Below are positions 8,731 to 39,317 of a stretch of DNA of 44,451 bases, piece after piece. How positions within the stretch are numbered: position 1 is the stretch's first letter; every line of letters begins with the position of its first letter. The translations under genes were made by a program, and so were the position numbers. The notes under the pieces are model-generated. The model saw only the letters and a list, made by a program, of their open reading frames with translations. It searched no databases and was not told where the DNA came from. Source of the DNA: Bacilli bacterium (GTDB lineage Bacteria; Bacillota_I; Bacilli_A; JAJDGJ01); contig JAISTP010000027.1 in assembly GCA_031272545.1 (NCBI GenBank), positions 1-44,451 of the forward strand, read 5' to 3'.

Positions 8731-8783
8731 AAAAAATATAGTCAAGATATCCTTGACTAGAGCAATAAAATATAAAAAGCTCT
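8731..8783 (-). promoter_or_regulatory. hisS leader with two hairpins, the second terminator-like
   Basis: From the predicted transcript start near 8787 the leader is about 78 nt. It holds a 5-bp stem (GCTCT/AGAGC, 8779-8783 with 8759-8763) and then a perfect 8-bp stem TAGTCAAG/CTTGACTA (8759-8752 with 8746-8739, 5-nt loop) followed by TATTTTTT. That is the form of an intrinsic terminator lying before the hisS ribosome site. Aminoacyl-tRNA synthetase operons of Bacillota often have a T-box here, but no T-box sequence fits in so short a leader and the T-box antiterminator motif is absent. Confidence 0.6.
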
Positions 8784-8793
8784 TAACTACTAA

Positions 8794-8822
8794 ATTATAT
8801 GAAAAATACCATTTTATGTCAA
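8794..8822 (-). promoter_or_regulatory. Sigma-A promoter of the hisS operon
   Basis: On the minus strand TTGACA (8822-8817) and TATAAT (8799-8794) are separated by exactly 17 bases. Both boxes match the consensus perfectly, the strongest promoter in the window. Confidence 0.9.
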
Positions 8823-8844
8823 TCTAGATAAACTTAATAATCAT

Positions 8845-8880
8845 ATAAAAACTAAGTAGATATAACATATTTACTTAGTT
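8845..8880 (-). terminator. Terminator of apt-rel
   Basis: Perfect 9-bp stem AACTAAGTA (8880-8872) with TACTTAGTT (8858-8850), 13-nt loop and TTTT after it on the minus strand. The 5' arm includes the rel stop codon. Confidence 0.75.
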
Positions 8881-13738: not shown

Positions 13739-15088
13739 ATGAGTAATAAAGTAAAAAAAGCCTTTAACTTAAAATCTTTCATTATCGCAAATGCTTTAAT
13801 GCTTTTTGGATTCTTCTTTGGAGCAGGTAATCTAATGTTCCCTCCATTTTTTGGAGGATTAGGTGGTTCACATTGGTGGATTGGTGCTTTAGGATTTGTT
13901 ATTGGTGATATTGTATTAATTGTTTTAGGATTATATGCTTCTACTAAATTTCCTAAAGCAGAAGTTATTGGTGTTTTCTACCGTAATGGAAGAGCTTTAG
14001 AGAAAATTCTAGCATGGTTATTTATTGTCGGTGGAGCTTGGTTAGTTGTACTTCCAAGATGTGGTTATTTATTTCATACATTTATAACTAACGAATTCTT
14101 TCCAGGAGTATCACCATGGTTTACTGCAATATTTTATTTTGGTTTATCATTAATCTTTGCTTTAAATCCAAATAAAGTAATCGATATCGTTGGTAAATAT
14201 TTAACACCTATATTAGTGGTTTGTTTAATAGGATTATTTGTTGTAGGTTTAAGTAAAGGAATTGCTAGTACTCCTCAAATGATACCTGATGGTGATTTGT
14301 TTAAAAATGGTTTAATTTCTGGATATATGACAATTGATTTAATGGGTGCAACTGTTACATCAGTTTTAGTAATATCTGTATTATCATATAATGGTGTTAA
14401 TGATAGAAAAACTCAAACAAGTGTTATTTTAAAATCAGCTCTAATCGCAGCTGTATTACTATTTATTGTATATGTAGGATTAACTTGGTTAGGAAGTGGA
14501 TTTGCGGCTAATATGGCAACTACAAAAGAAGATCAAGCAGCTTATTTAGTAGCAATGATTAAACAACTATTTGGATCTGCTGGTTATGTGGTAATGGCTG
14601 TTGTACTAGGTTTTGCAGTATTAACTACTTCTACAGCCACAATAGCTGGTTGTGGTCAATTAGGACATATCGCATCAGGAAAAAAACTTTCTCATAAATT
14701 ATTATGTGCCTTAGCGGCAATCATAGCTGGTTGTATTTCAGTTCTTGGAGCAGGTGCTTTAATTTCATTTGCGACAATGGTTGTTTTAGCAATTTATCCA
14801 GCAATTGTAACTAATGTTATCCTAACTATCTTTACTAAATTTATTAGAAATGATAATGTTTATCGTGGTGCAACAATCGCAGCATTATTCTTTGGTTTAT
14901 GTATTGCTTTAGCTCAATCATATCCTACACAATTTGCATTCTTAAGTATTTTCTTAAAACTACCATTAGTTTCAGTATATTTAGGTTGGTTAATACCAAC
15001 TATTATTGGTGGAATCATTGGCGCTTTTGTTAAATATAAAGGTTATGAAAATAGACCATTCTTAAGAGAAAATGCTAATCAAGAATAA
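13739..15088 (+). CDS. brnQ: Branched-chain amino acid:cation symporter BrnQ, copy 1
   Basis: LIVCS-family carrier importing Leu, Ile and Val with Na+ or H+. The 449-residue protein is almost wholly hydrophobic with about 12 membrane segments; FFGAGNLMFPPFFGGLGG near residue 25 is the family N-terminal signature, and YLGWLIPTIIGGIIG lies near the C terminus. It is very similar to the next gene along its whole length. A stand-alone unit: own promoter, hairpin leader and terminator. The ATG has AAGG ten bases upstream. The exact substrate range of each copy cannot be read from sequence. Confidence 0.93.
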   Translation: MSNKVKKAFNLKSFIIANALMLFGFFFGAGNLMFPPFFGGLGGSHWWIGALGFVIGDIVLIVLGLYASTKFPKAEVIGVFYRNGRALEKILAWLFIVGGAWLVVLPRCGYLFHTFITNEFFPGVSPWFTAIFYFGLSLIFALNPNKVIDIVGKYLTPILVVCLIGLFVVGLSKGIASTPQMIPDGDLFKNGLISGYMTIDLMGATVTSVLVISVLSYNGVNDRKTQTSVILKSALIAAVLLFIVYVGLTWLGSGFAANMATTKEDQAAYLVAMIKQLFGSAGYVVMAVVLGFAVLTTSTATIAGCGQLGHIASGKKLSHKLLCALAAIIAGCISVLGAGALISFATMVVLAIYPAIVTNVILTIFTKFIRNDNVYRGATIAALFFGLCIALAQSYPTQFAFLSIFLKLPLVSVYLGWLIPTIIGGIIGAFVKYKGYENRPFLRENANQE

Positions 15089-15105
15089 TAGAATATAACT
15101 AATAT

Positions 15106-15131
15106 AAAAAGAGTAATTATTTACTCTTTTT
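15106..15131 (+). terminator. Terminator of brnQ1
   Basis: Perfect 11-bp stem AAAAAGAGTAA (15106-15116) with TTACTCTTTTT (15121-15131), 4-nt loop and a T run. Confidence 0.85.
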
Positions 15132-15276
15132 TATTTTATTATCTAGAAATATATAACTTATTCAGATTAATATTATGCAAAATAAATATATTTTCTTGAA
15201 ATAATAAAGTTAATATTAATAATATATTTATATTTGTTAAAATTATATTAAATCAGATCATTAATATATAAATTTA

Positions 15277-15285
15277 TGATATAAA
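15277..15285 (+). promoter_or_regulatory. Extended -10 promoter of brnQ2
   Basis: TGATATAAA, a TGn-extended -10 about 25 bases before the leader's GAAAGGAAT box. No -35 box is evident. Confidence 0.5.
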
Positions 15286-15310
15286 TTAAACAGTTTAAAA
15301 AATATTTTAA

Positions 15311-15351
15311 GAAAGGAATTTTATAAATATAACTATATTTATAAATAAAGG
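15311..15351 (+). promoter_or_regulatory. brnQ2 leader: hairpin between two purine boxes
   Basis: GAAAGGAAT (15311-15319) is followed by perfect 12-base AT-only arms TTTATAAATATA (15320-15331) and TATATTTATAAA (15334-15345), then the AAAGG ribosome site (15347-15351) nine bases before the ATG. It is the same architecture as brnQ1, with a compact loop. Confidence 0.65.
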
Positions 15352-15360
15352 TATCATTAA

Positions 15361-16713
15361 ATGAGTGAAAATGTAAAAAAAGCTTTTAATTTAAAATCAT
15401 TCACCATTGCAAATGGCTTAATGTTATTTGCCTTTTTCTTTGGTGCAGGTAATTTAATGTTTCCTCCATATTTTGGTGGAATTGGTGGTAAACTCTGGTT
15501 TATTGGAGCTTTAGGTTTCATCATAGGTGATGTTTTATTAATTGTATTAGGTTTATATGCATCAACTAAATATCCTAAAGCTGAAATAATTGGAGTATTT
15601 TATCGAAATGGACGTGCCTTAGAAAGAGTTTTAGCATGGTTATTTATTATTGGTGGAGCTTGGTTAGTTGTGCTACCTCGTTGTGGATATCTATTTCATA
15701 CTTTTGTAACAGCACAACTATTTCCATCTGTTTCACCTTGGATTAGTTCTATTGTATTCTTTGGTATCTGTTTAATTTTAGCTATTAATCCTAATAAAGT
15801 TATTGATATTGTTGGAAAATATTTAGCTCCAATTAAAGTTGTAGCTATTTTATTGTTAATTGGAATTGGTATTGCTAAAGGAATTACTAATGGTGATTCA
15901 ATGATTCCAACAGGTGAATTATTTAAAAATGGACTTTTAAGTGGTTATATGACAATTGATTTAATGGGTGCAACTGTTACTTCTGTATTAATAATTTCAG
16001 TATTAAAAAATAATGGTGTTACTAGTACTAAAATTCAATCTGGAGTTATTATGAAATCAGCGGCTATATGTGCAGTATTATTAATAATTATCTATGGTGG
16101 TCTAACATTCTTAGGTTCTGGATTCACATCAAGTCTTTCAACTACCGGAGAAGATCAAGCAGCTTATTTAGTATTAGTAATTAAAGGTGTCTTCGGTACT
16201 GCTGGTTCAGTAATGATGGCAATTATTATTGCTATTGCTGTTTGTACTACTACTACAGCAACAATTGCTGGTTGTGGTCAATTAGGAAATTTAGCTGCTT
16301 CAAATAAAATTTCATTTAAAGTATTAGCTATAATTTCAGCTATCGTAGCTGGTGTAATTGCAGCTATGGGTGCTGCACAATTAATTACTTTTGCGACTAT
16401 GGTAGTATTAGCTATCTATCCTGCTATTGTTACAAATGTAATTTTAACTATCTTTACTAGATTTATTAGAAATGATAATGTATTTAGAGGAGCAAGTATT
16501 GCCGCATTAGTATTTGGTGTCTTAATCGCCTTGCCTCAAACATATCCTGATATATTTTCATTCTTAAATATTTTCTTAAAATTACCTTTAGTTTCAGTAT
16601 ATTTAGGTTGGTTAATTCCTGCAATTATTTGTGGAATCATTGGTGCATTTATTAAATATAAAGGTTATGAAAATAGACCATTCTTAAGAGAAAATGCTGA
16701 ACAACAAGATTAA
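15361..16713 (+). CDS. brnQ: Branched-chain amino acid:cation symporter BrnQ, copy 2
   Basis: LIVCS-family carrier, 450 residues, paralogous to the gene before it: both begin with VKKAFNLKSF, share FFGAGNLMFPP, AWLVVLPRCGYLFHTF, YMTIDLMGATVTSVL and end in YKGYENRPFLRENA. Differences cluster in the middle (residues about 115-180) and in loops, so the two may differ in affinity or preference. Most synonymous positions differ, but a 47-base tract near the 3' end (16652-16698) is identical to 15030-15076. It has its own promoter, leader and terminator, so the copies can be regulated separately. Confidence 0.93.
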   Translation: MSENVKKAFNLKSFTIANGLMLFAFFFGAGNLMFPPYFGGIGGKLWFIGALGFIIGDVLLIVLGLYASTKYPKAEIIGVFYRNGRALERVLAWLFIIGGAWLVVLPRCGYLFHTFVTAQLFPSVSPWISSIVFFGICLILAINPNKVIDIVGKYLAPIKVVAILLLIGIGIAKGITNGDSMIPTGELFKNGLLSGYMTIDLMGATVTSVLIISVLKNNGVTSTKIQSGVIMKSAAICAVLLIIIYGGLTFLGSGFTSSLSTTGEDQAAYLVLVIKGVFGTAGSVMMAIIIAIAVCTTTTATIAGCGQLGNLAASNKISFKVLAIISAIVAGVIAAMGAAQLITFATMVVLAIYPAIVTNVILTIFTRFIRNDNVFRGASIAALVFGVLIALPQTYPDIFSFLNIFLKLPLVSVYLGWLIPAIICGIIGAFIKYKGYENRPFLRENAEQQD

Positions 16714-19138: not shown

Positions 19139-20290
19139 ATGGAAAATTATTATCGTAATACTTGGATAGAAATAGATTTAGATAATATTAAACATAATAT
19201 TAATGAAATTAAAGAAAAATGTAGTAAGGATAAATATCTTTTTGCAGTTATAAAAGGAGATGCTTATGGTCATGGTCTTAAACAAGTAAGTGATATTGTA
19301 GTAGAAAGTAGTGCAGATGGTTGTGCTGTTGCGACTTTAGATGAAGCATTACTAGTTAAAAAATATCATAAAGATCTTAAAACATTGGTTCTAGGAATTA
19401 TTCCAGATGAACAATACCAAACTGCATGTGATAATGATATTACTTTAACTATTGCGACTAAAGAAAGTGCTCAATTACTAGCTTCATTAAATTTAAACAA
19501 GGAATTATTAATACATATTAAAGTAAATACTGGAATGAATCGTATTGGATTTATTGATATCGATGAAATTAAAGAAGCTATTACTATTTTAGAACAAAAT
19601 AAAAAAATAAATATTGAAGGAATATTTACTCATTTTGCGACAGCTGAAGATTATGATAAAGAAGATTATTTAATGATGCAATTAAATCGTTTTAAAGAAG
19701 TAGTTACTAATCTTAATTATGATTTTAAATACATTCATTGTACTAATTCAGCTTCTTTATTAAAACTACATGAACATATTGATTTTACAACCGCAAATCG
19801 ATGTGGTATCGTTTTATATTGTGCTTTAGAAGACAAAGTATTATATCAATATGATATTAAACCAACTTTTAAATTAAAATCAAAAATAGCTCAAGTACAA
19901 GTATATGAAAAAGGTAAAAAAATTGGATATTCAATTCGATATACTACTGAAAAAGATAATGAAATTATTGCAACTATTCCAATAGGATATGCTGATGGTT
20001 TTGCAAGAGCACATACTTTAAGTAAAGTTAAAGTTAAAGAGCAATATGGAACAATAGTTGGAAGTATTTGTATGGATCAATTAATGATAAGATTTGATGA
20101 TATGGTACATATAAATGATGAAGTTATTTTGATTGATGGTTATGATAAAGAATTAAATGTCTTTACTAGATGTAAGCAAGCTCAAACTATTACTCATGAA
20201 ATATTTACAAGATTTGGTAATCGCGTTCCTAAACTATATTATAAAAATAAAGAACTTGTTGAAATAGATAATGCTTTACTAAAAAAATAA
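19139..20290 (+). CDS. alr: Alanine racemase
   Basis: PLP enzyme (fold III) that makes D-alanine for peptidoglycan, implying a walled cell. The 383-residue protein has the PLP-lysine motif VIKGDAYGHG near residue 39, VNTGMNRIGF, EGIFTHFATA, FKYIHCTNSAS, the catalytic-tyrosine region IPIGYADGFARA and GSICMDQLMIRF near the C terminus. AAGG stands before the ATG. It follows a GntR-type regulator in the same transcript and is closed by a strong terminator. Confidence 0.96.
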   Translation: MENYYRNTWIEIDLDNIKHNINEIKEKCSKDKYLFAVIKGDAYGHGLKQVSDIVVESSADGCAVATLDEALLVKKYHKDLKTLVLGIIPDEQYQTACDNDITLTIATKESAQLLASLNLNKELLIHIKVNTGMNRIGFIDIDEIKEAITILEQNKKINIEGIFTHFATAEDYDKEDYLMMQLNRFKEVVTNLNYDFKYIHCTNSASLLKLHEHIDFTTANRCGIVLYCALEDKVLYQYDIKPTFKLKSKIAQVQVYEKGKKIGYSIRYTTEKDNEIIATIPIGYADGFARAHTLSKVKVKEQYGTIVGSICMDQLMIRFDDMVHINDEVILIDGYDKELNVFTRCKQAQTITHEIFTRFGNRVPKLYYKNKELVEIDNALLKK

Positions 20291-29799: not shown

Positions 29800-30264
29800 T
29801 TATTTTTTAGTTGCATTAATATAATCACTATCAAGAATAATTGTTGTTGGCCCAACATTAATTATTTCAACAATCATATCAGATTGAAACTCACCTACAG
29901 CTACTTCTATATCATGAGATTTTAAACATTCATTAAAATAATCATACATCTTAGTTGCTAAAGAAGGATCCATTGCATCAGAAAAGCCTGGACGATTACC
30001 TTTTTTAGTATCCGCATATAAAGTGAATTGTGAGATTGATAATATTTGTCCATTAATATCTTTAACACTTAAATTCATTTTTCCAGCATCATCAGTAAAA
30101 ATTCTTAAATTAACAATTTTTTGAGCTATTTTAGCTACAATATCTTTATTATCATCATGATTAAAGCCAACCAAAACATTTAATCCCTTACCTATTTCAT
30201 TTTTAATATTTTTCTCACTTATTAAAACACTACTTCTCTCAACTACTTGTACTATTGCTCTCAT
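29800..30264 (-). CDS. dtd: D-aminoacyl-tRNA deacylase
   Basis: Frees tRNA mischarged with D-amino acids or glycine. The 154 residues show MRAIVQVVERSSV at the start, the catalytic SQFTLYADTKKGNRP and the cross-subunit NVGPTTIILDSD with the Gly-cisPro pair. In Bacilli dtd usually sits next to rel and hisS; here it has moved away and is coupled instead to the amidoligase-like gene, whose last codons provide its GGGGAG ribosome site; the gap is 2 bases. Confidence 0.95.
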   Translation of the reverse strand: MRAIVQVVERSSVLISEKNIKNEIGKGLNVLVGFNHDDNKDIVAKIAQKIVNLRIFTDDAGKMNLSVKDINGQILSISQFTLYADTKKGNRPGFSDAMDPSLATKMYDYFNECLKSHDIEVAVGEFQSDMIVEIINVGPTTIILDSDYINATKK

Positions 30265-30266
30265 TT

Positions 30267-30965
30267 TTAAATCTCCCCATAAAATATATTCTTAATCTTT
30301 GTTAATAATAAAATAAAATTTTCTTTACTAATTTCTGAATTAACACATCTTAATTCTATTAAATCTTTTTTTAATAAATTAATTGCTAAATACTTATTCG
30401 CAACATTTTGTTGAAATTTAATATAATTATCATAGTCACCTTTATCAATAAAACGTTTATATTCATTAAAATGATAAGTATCAGTATCATTAACATCAAT
30501 AATTTCAAATAAAGCTCTAAATTTCTCAGCTTTTATCTTTTCGTCAGCTTTAATATTAACATGTAAGCCACAAGCAAAATCTTTGCTTACACTTAAGACA
30601 CCATTACTAAAATCAATAATTTCTCTAATTTTATAATATACTTCAGTACATTCTTCTAAATCTAAAGGATCTAAACATATTTCAAAACCATAATCTCCTT
30701 TAATTGTTCGATCAAAAACAAAATTACCACGATAATTAACTAAAGAAATAATATTATTTAACATCGCAATTAAAAACATAAAATGAGTTCTTTGTACTTT
30801 AGCACTTACTTCTATTTCTAAACCAAAACCAAAAACACTATCTTCTATATAATAATCAGTACGAGAATTAATTTGTAATAAACGATTTATTTCTCTTTTA
30901 AAACCTTTTATTTCTTCATCATGATCAACGACTTCATCATAATCTATTGGTTCAATAAATCCCAT
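30267..30965 (-). CDS. Putative amidoligase (glutamine synthetase-like carboxylate-amine ligase fold)
   Basis: A 232-residue soluble protein with no signal peptide or membrane segment. It shows the pattern of the putative amidoligase family (Pfam Amidoligase_2): GFGLEIEV (E50, E52), GFEICLDPL (E95), CGLHVNI (H135) and NKYLAINL...LIELRCV (K191, E204, R206). These match the acidic metal ligands, the His and the final E-x-R of that fold, so the site looks intact; the usual HVH reads HVN. Such enzymes are predicted to join a carboxylate to an amine using ATP. A strong AAGGAGG lies before the start. It is the first gene of a two-gene unit with dtd. The family call comes from motif recognition alone; the substrate is unknown. 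Confidence 0.65.
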   Translation of the reverse strand: MGFIEPIDYDEVVDHDEEIKGFKREINRLLQINSRTDYYIEDSVFGFGLEIEVSAKVQRTHFMFLIAMLNNIISLVNYRGNFVFDRTIKGDYGFEICLDPLDLEECTEVYYKIREIIDFSNGVLSVSKDFACGLHVNIKADEKIKAEKFRALFEIIDVNDTDTYHFNEYKRFIDKGDYDNYIKFQQNVANKYLAINLLKKDLIELRCVNSEISKENFILLLTKIKNIFYGEI

Positions 30966-31123
30966 AACTTATACCTCCTTATATTAAAAATGTATTTATA
31001 CTACAACTTATGAAATATGTATTCATATCTTAACATATTTTAAATATTTTTACTCACTATTTTAATATCATCAACATATTAAAGAAAATATTATTAACAT
31101 AATTTTATCTATTTATTAAGATA

Positions 31124-37971: not shown

Positions 37972-39288
37972 TTAAATTGTATAAATATAATGTTTTAACT
38001 CCCAATCAGTTATTTGATGACGATAATCAGCCCATTCTTTTAATTTAGCTTCCATGAATTTTTCATAAGTATGTTTACCAATCGCATTGATTACTAATTG
38101 ATCTTCTTCTAATGAATTTAAAGCATCTTTTAAAGAATTAGGTAAATTTTTTATATTTAATTCTTGTCTTTCTTTTCTTGTTAGCTCAAAGATATTAATA
38201 TATGAAGGTTGCATTGGTTCAATTTTATTTTTAATGCCATCTAATCCACATGCTAGTACTGCTGCCATAGCTAAATATGGATTGCAACTACAATCAACTG
38301 ATCTTATCTCAGTTCTAGTAGCTTGTTTACGAGATGCTGGAATTCTAATAAAAGTTGATCTATTTTCTGTTGACCATGCAATATAACAAGGTGCTTCATA
38401 TCCTGGAGTTAAACGTTTGTATGAATTAACTATTGGATTAGTTATAGCACATAAAGCACGAGCATGCTTAGTTATGCCACCAATCCAATAAAGACAAGTT
38501 TGACTTAATTGTAATGGAGCATTTTCATCATAGAAAACATTATTACCTTCTTTATCAGCTAAAGAACAATTAGTATGCATCCCACTACCAGCTTTTTCTG
38601 AGAAAGGTTTTGGCATAAAAGAAGCATATAATCCATATTTTGATGCAACATCTTTAACTACATGTTTATATGTTTGGATATTATCGCAAGCTTCTAAGAC
38701 ATTAGCATATTTAAAGTTAATTTCATATTGTCCTGGTCCTACTTCATGATGACTAGCTTCAATTGTAAAACCAATTTCTTCTAAACGATAAACAATTTCA
38801 CGTAAACAATCACCTGCTTGTTCAATAGCACTTAAATCAAAATAAGAATCAAAGTCATTAGTATCAGCAGTTGGATTACCAAATTCATCTAATTTTAATA
38901 AATAAAATTCAGGTTCTAATCCTAAATTAAATGAACCATATCCTAATTCATCCATTTCTTTCATAACTCTTTTTAAATTACCACGAGGATCACCTTCAAA
39001 TGGTGTACGATCTGTTTTATAAATATCACAAATTAAACGAGCAATATCATCTTTAATAATTTTAAAAGTTGCTAGATCAGGATACAAATACATATCAGCT
39101 TCCATAATGCGAACAAAACCTTCAATACTAGAACCATCAAAAATAACATCATTATTAAGAATCATATCAATTTGTGATACTGGAACTTCAACACTTTTTA
39201 GTTTTCCCATCATATCAGTAAATTGCAATCTAATCATTTTAATACCATTTTCTTCAATTTGTCTTTTAATACTTTCTTTTGTTATCAT
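37972..39288 (-). CDS. glnA: Glutamine synthetase, type I (Bacillus-like alpha form)
   Basis: Makes glutamine from glutamate, ammonia and ATP as a cytosolic dodecamer. The 438 residues include DGSSIEGF, GLEPEFYLL, HHEVGPGQYEINF, GSGMHTNCSL, NRSTFIRIPASR and EIRSVDCSCNPYLA. The C terminus lacks the adenylylated-Tyr motif of the beta form, and R60 in EGFVRIMEADM matches the feedback-control Arg of B. subtilis GlnA. I chose the ATG at 39288: GGAGG lies five bases before it, whereas the ATG at 39300 sits upstream of that site. No glnR regulator is adjacent, unlike the Bacillus glnRA operon. Confidence 0.96.
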   Translation of the reverse strand: MITKESIKRQIEENGIKMIRLQFTDMMGKLKSVEVPVSQIDMILNNDVIFDGSSIEGFVRIMEADMYLYPDLATFKIIKDDIARLICDIYKTDRTPFEGDPRGNLKRVMKEMDELGYGSFNLGLEPEFYLLKLDEFGNPTADTNDFDSYFDLSAIEQAGDCLREIVYRLEEIGFTIEASHHEVGPGQYEINFKYANVLEACDNIQTYKHVVKDVASKYGLYASFMPKPFSEKAGSGMHTNCSLADKEGNNVFYDENAPLQLSQTCLYWIGGITKHARALCAITNPIVNSYKRLTPGYEAPCYIAWSTENRSTFIRIPASRKQATRTEIRSVDCSCNPYLAMAAVLACGLDGIKNKIEPMQPSYINIFELTRKERQELNIKNLPNSLKDALNSLEEDQLVINAIGKHTYEKFMEAKLKEWADYRHQITDWELKHYIYTI

Positions 39289-39317
39289 ATTTACCTCCAT
39301 ATTTAAAAATTAGATTT

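Follow-up and report, generated by a model that had tools for sequence, protein, structure and literature searches.

A divergent single-domain protein encoded beside dtd in a Bacilli lineage is a likely carboxylate-amine ligase with relatives in a queA-tgt module

The window, that is the whole stretch of DNA analysed here, spans 44,451 nucleotides of a Bacilli bacterium contig. On its minus strand lies an open reading frame encoding an amidoligase-like protein, which is followed after two bases by dtd. The gene upstream, hppA, has a divergent orientation. The initial annotation had described a protein of 232 residues with dtd two bases downstream, and both descriptions were confirmed on the minus strand. 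The genes and the translation signals are as follows:

30267..30965, minus strand: amidoligase-like reading frame, 232 amino acids, ATG start; supported by orthologues, dN/dS and predicted fold
30973..30979, minus strand: Shine-Dalgarno sequence AGGAGGT for the ligase, directly before the ATG, read in the sequence
29800..30264, minus strand: dtd, D-aminoacyl-tRNA deacylase, 154 amino acids, second gene of the operon (PF02580, E-value 4.6e-51; TIGR00256, E-value 2.3e-49)
30273..30278, minus strand: Shine-Dalgarno-like sequence GGGGAG for dtd, within the 3' end of the ligase reading frame

Elsewhere, the window encodes a glutamine synthetase (37972-39300) and a tandem pair of similar transporter genes (13739-16713; 449 and 450 amino acids) that resemble branched-chain amino-acid carriers by eye.

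Two other genomes of the same order carry orthologues of the ligase gene, with 85% (G001) and 71% (G002) identity to that of the window (G000), while a fourth genome (G003, 62% complete) is without it. The dN/dS ratio of the ligase reading frame ranges between 0.17 and 0.22, as compared to 0.26-0.30 for dtd in the same genomes. The reading frame is a real gene under purifying selection. A profile of the three sequences detected two further relatives in the class, both in the sister family f10 (E-values 7e-38 and 5e-34), and a search of 385 genomes in the order of f10 brought the strong members of this family to eight. Sweeps across the phylum and the class with a profile of 11 sequences returned strong members nowhere beyond the window's order and f10. 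The f10 ligases share 33-36% identity with the ligase of the window lineage. Two weaker relatives (in G493 and G354; L046:4704-5573 and L047:2630-3661) have no equivalents of E95 and H135 and look like inactive cousins; the L046 one sits between ftsZ and an ftsK-like gene.

The putative active-site motifs of the protein were compared across 11 homologues with 33-85% identity:

30810..30818, minus strand: codons E50-I51-E52, GLEIE motif in the first strand, with residues predicted to bind Mg/ATP; unchanged in all 11 homologues and corresponding to GIEIEF of Amidoligase_2 relatives
30681..30683, minus strand: codon E95, GDYxFE motif; invariant in the 11 homologues and lost in the two degenerate relatives
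30561..30572, minus strand: codons C132-G133-L134-H135, CGLH motif; L134 almost invariant and the other three residues fully so; corresponding to CGIH of Amidoligase_2 relatives
30393..30395, minus strand: codon K191, KYxxxN motif; invariant in the 11 homologues
30348..30356, minus strand: codons E204-L205-R206, ExR motif; neither the glutamate nor the arginine varies among the 11 homologues; corresponding to VELRGFNSEL of Amidoligase_2 relatives

The initial annotation had proposed a full set of amidoligase landmarks, and all the residue numbers it gave were correct. Eight of these residues (E50, E52, E95, G133, H135, K191, E204 and R206) are invariant across the 11 homologues and L134 is nearly so, which is in line with the proposal. 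Overall, 46 of the 232 positions are invariant, and the probability that all eight fall among them is 1.4e-6 if positions are assumed to be equivalent, although residues of catalytic type are often conserved in any case. At the level of motifs, GxExE, DxT, YxFE, CGxH, KYxxxN and ExR are invariant in the 11 sequences. Their order and spacing are those of the Amidoligase_2 relatives (GIEIEF, DGS, YSxE, CGIHIH, ExRxxN): to the series GxEIEF, DGS/T, YSxE, CGIHxHx and ExRxxN of that family correspond GLEIEV, DRT, YGFE, CGLHVN and ELRCVN of the window protein, with an asparagine replacing the second histidine of GIHIH. The features expected in the superfamily of glutamine synthetases and gamma-glutamylcysteine ligases (GS/GCS), namely acidic residues of the metal/ATP-binding type, the histidine and the ExR motif, are also all kept in the 11 homologues.

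The initial annotation had looked to PF12224 (Amidoligase_2) for confirmation, and here the window protein had no match, as with the rest of Pfam; nothing beyond chance was found in NCBIfam, PHROGs or the PDB sequences either. Two family members do match PF12224 (best E-value 0.0033; the L044 member scores 16.7 bits), below its curated cut-off of 22 bits, and no member of the family reached the cut-off of any curated profile. A search of the window's genome with PF12224 gave no match. When profiles were aligned to each other with hhalign, the best hit to an Amidoligase_2 phage family had an E-value of 4.6e-5 and a probability of 69, within an overall range of 30-69% obtained with shallow profiles. 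A PADLOC search for defence systems returned nothing on the window protein and a chance-level match to Cmr5 on one relative. By the curated test the protein is thus not a member of PF12224, but it seems to behave like an amidoligase.

The predicted structure points in the same direction. An AlphaFold model built from 13 homologues (pLDDT 80.7, pTM 0.79) had as its top Foldseek matches in BFVD two phage models named 'Amidoligase enzyme' (E-values 3.0e-8 and 1.5e-7, TM-scores 0.57 and 0.59). Its matches in the PDB were led by glutamine synthetases (E-value 8.8e-5, probability 1.00), with loose superpositions (TM-scores 0.35-0.51, rmsd 11-17 Å). An earlier model from three sequences (pLDDT 59), which matched the regulatory domain of aspartate kinase, was discarded as poor. 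The structural comparison that the initial annotation had suggested therefore recovers phage amidoligases and then glutamine synthetases. As a prediction, we regard the GS/GCS-type fold as established, and we consider it very likely that the enzyme belongs to the ligases joining carboxylates and amines. The assignment to ATP-dependent amide ligases put forward in the initial annotation is accordingly supported, as a prediction, by fold comparison and motif conservation and, weakly, by profile comparison.

The protein resembles Amidoligase_2 in predicted fold, in motif order and in size, which is close to the 245 positions of the Pfam model and to the shortest phage matches (254 and 266 amino acids). 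It differs in the catalytic block, CGIHIHL in Amidoligase_2 and CGLHVNI in the window protein, and in gene context, because neighbours of true members are missing at the window ligase; one example of such a neighbour is the YGSN (GGCT-like) gene next to L021. An Amidoligase_2 gene at L022:1495-2292, which adjoins a recombinase gene, carries sequence similar to the terminal part of a serine recombinase in place of its own 3' portion and may mark an insertion site. Glutamine synthetases are the best matches of the model among solved structures; compared to glutamine synthetases and gamma-glutamylcysteine ligases, however, the window protein is about half the size and has no N-terminal domain.

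We therefore consider the window protein, with a probability of about 0.7, to be a divergent single-domain carboxylate-amine ligase related to Amidoligase_2 and acting on an amino acid, a glutamyl compound or a peptide. From the fold, Mg-ATP would be bound by E50, E52, E95, H135 and E204, and a carboxylate would be activated to an acyl phosphate. An amine would then attack the acyl phosphate to give an amide, ADP and Pi, while R206 and K191 may hold the phosphate or the carboxylate of the substrate. This class of substrate, with short peptides in the last case, is suggested by the f10 genomes, where a hydrolase is either joined to the ligase domain or encoded next to it and a RimK-family ligase follows. 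This part is carried over from f10 by analogy, across 33-36% identity and a different gene context.

In the window's order, ligase and dtd are adjacent in all three genomes that bear the gene, with gaps of 2, 2 and -1 bases (G000, G001 and G002, respectively). They lie within a block composed of PFOR, dtd, ligase and hppA, which is whole in G000 and G002 and visible from dtd onward in G001. The f10 ligases have no dtd beside them. The proposed translational coupling to dtd is thus supported for the window's order, and the pairing does not extend to wherever the family occurs. Co-translation with dtd in the window's lineage probably reflects a common promoter. The initial annotation had also stated that the ligase has no partner gene except dtd; this is true of the window and of its order as searched, but not of f10, where RimK-like ligase and hydrolase partners are found. 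RimK-profile matches in the window's genome proved to be Ddl and PurD, with biotin carboxylase in addition in G002, and were rejected as partners. A hydrolase partner was not found in the window's order either, in a search that had no positive control. The ligase appears, from these gene inventories, to act alone in this order.

Alternatively, ligase and DTD may work together on D-amino acids or misacylated glycine, with the ligase using up the free D-amino acids or glycine in amide bonds and DTD clearing them from tRNA. We regard this as unlikely. In its favour, the two genes are adjacent and probably translationally coupled in three out of three genomes, and they remain within the PFOR-dtd-ligase-hppA block despite different genes past hppA in each genome. 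In addition, the window contains a run of apt, rel, hisS and aspS (11578-5684) with no dtd at the junction between rel and hisS (8745-8871), and dtd lies roughly 19 kb from there, next to the ligase. Since dtd is absent from this slot, where Bacillus keeps it, the gene appears to have been relocated. This relocation speaks mildly for a genuine partnership, and three genomes from one small order, in which the flanking PFOR and hppA are equally conserved, are insufficient to establish it. The pair is also not seen in f10, and neither alr (19139-20290 in the window) nor Ddl, which is encoded in the genome, lies near the ligase. The initial annotation had also suggested a connection with D-amino acids or with modification of the wall, and we found no support for it beyond membership in the operon.

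In f10 the ligase has a richer context. Across eight genomes, some of them with partial views (the contig of G412 starts at the ligase), the genes follow the order queA, hydrolase domain, ligase, RimK-family ATP-grasp and tgt. The ATP-grasp partner passes TIGR00768, the RimK family of alpha-L-glutamate ligases (173 bits as compared to a cut-off of 143); this assignment concerns the partner only and not the window ligase. The hydrolase domain resembles N-formylglutamate amidohydrolases and poly-gamma-glutamate hydrolases, with E-values for FGase (1.8e-4) and Gamma_PGA_hydro (2.9e-4) that are both below the cut-offs. It is usually fused to the C-terminus of QueA, and this occurs in three genera:

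L039:1813-3471: QueA with C-terminal hydrolase-like domain
L040:3347-5026: QueA with C-terminal hydrolase-like domain
L041:5655-7313: QueA with C-terminal hydrolase-like domain
L043:2987-4672: QueA with C-terminal hydrolase-like domain
L044:5992-7686: QueA with C-terminal hydrolase-like domain

In G261 (L038), the hydrolase domain is fused instead to the N-terminus of the ligase. In G713 (L045:3385-5056), the QueA-hydrolase fusion is broken into two reading frames of 475 and 72 amino acids, through a frameshift, a sequencing error or decay. Upstream of the module, G524 encodes a true Amidoligase_2 protein (L043:1165-2124, E-value 7e-10). A second hydrolase-like protein, which lacks the histidines of APH and DIH, is also encoded there (L043:2218-2979). 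A literature search on the QueA-hydrolase fusion found no paper.

Clusters composed of ATP-grasp enzymes, COOH-NH2 ligases and peptidases were predicted by Iyer et al. (2009), as cited in PMC4431377 and PMC8939145, and the former describes operonic linkage of ATP-grasp enzymes and COOH-NH2 ligases in several instances. The f10 module has exactly such a mix, except that its hydrolase forms a fusion with QueA or with the ligase. In the window's order neither an ATP-grasp nor a hydrolase partner was found, and the lineage has the ligase only.

The position of the module between queA and tgt raises the question of whether tRNA or a 7-deazaguanine (queuosine) intermediate is the target to which the ligase adds an amino acid or an amide, and whether the neighbouring tRNA-related genes (queA and tgt in f10, dtd in the window's order) reflect this activity. 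The hydrolase fused to QueA in three genera favours such a role, and its fusion to the ligase in G261 links all three proteins through a Rosetta-stone argument. The window's genome also has queA, but located elsewhere, with neither the ligase nor the hydrolase nearby, and dtd encodes a deacylase rather than a modification enzyme. Moreover, queA and tgt commonly form an operon, and the f10 module may therefore be a passenger in it. A role in tRNA or queuosine metabolism is thus improbable on present data.

Less probable still is that the protein is an amidoligase domesticated from a phage and now unconnected with the genes around it. Phage proteins are the nearest matches to its fold, relatives of Amidoligase_2 are abundant in phages, and the family is very patchy. 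However, no relatives of the subfamily were found in the viral contigs, phages and plasmids searched, and the neighbours of the ligase gene in the window are housekeeping genes. An old phage origin, if true, would leave the enzyme class unchanged. Finally, it is very doubtful that the family consists of amino-acid ligases directed at tRNA or queuosine, which together with the QueA-fused hydrolase and RimK would install and remove a glutamyl or amide group on 7-deazaguanine or aminoacyl-tRNA, with the stand-alone version beside dtd as the minimal form.

If the protein is a carboxylate-amine ligase as the model predicts, it would add to the glutamine-synthetase-like ligases a minimal family that Pfam and NCBIfam do not recognise. 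One setting of this family is the pairing with dtd alone; the other is a ligase-hydrolase cluster with a QueA-fused hydrolase. The QueA-hydrolase fusion is a by-product of the analysis and more surprising than the ligase itself. If amide ligases do not take part in tRNA modification, the family would be one more orphan amide ligase; the fusion makes it testable whether they act in this pathway.
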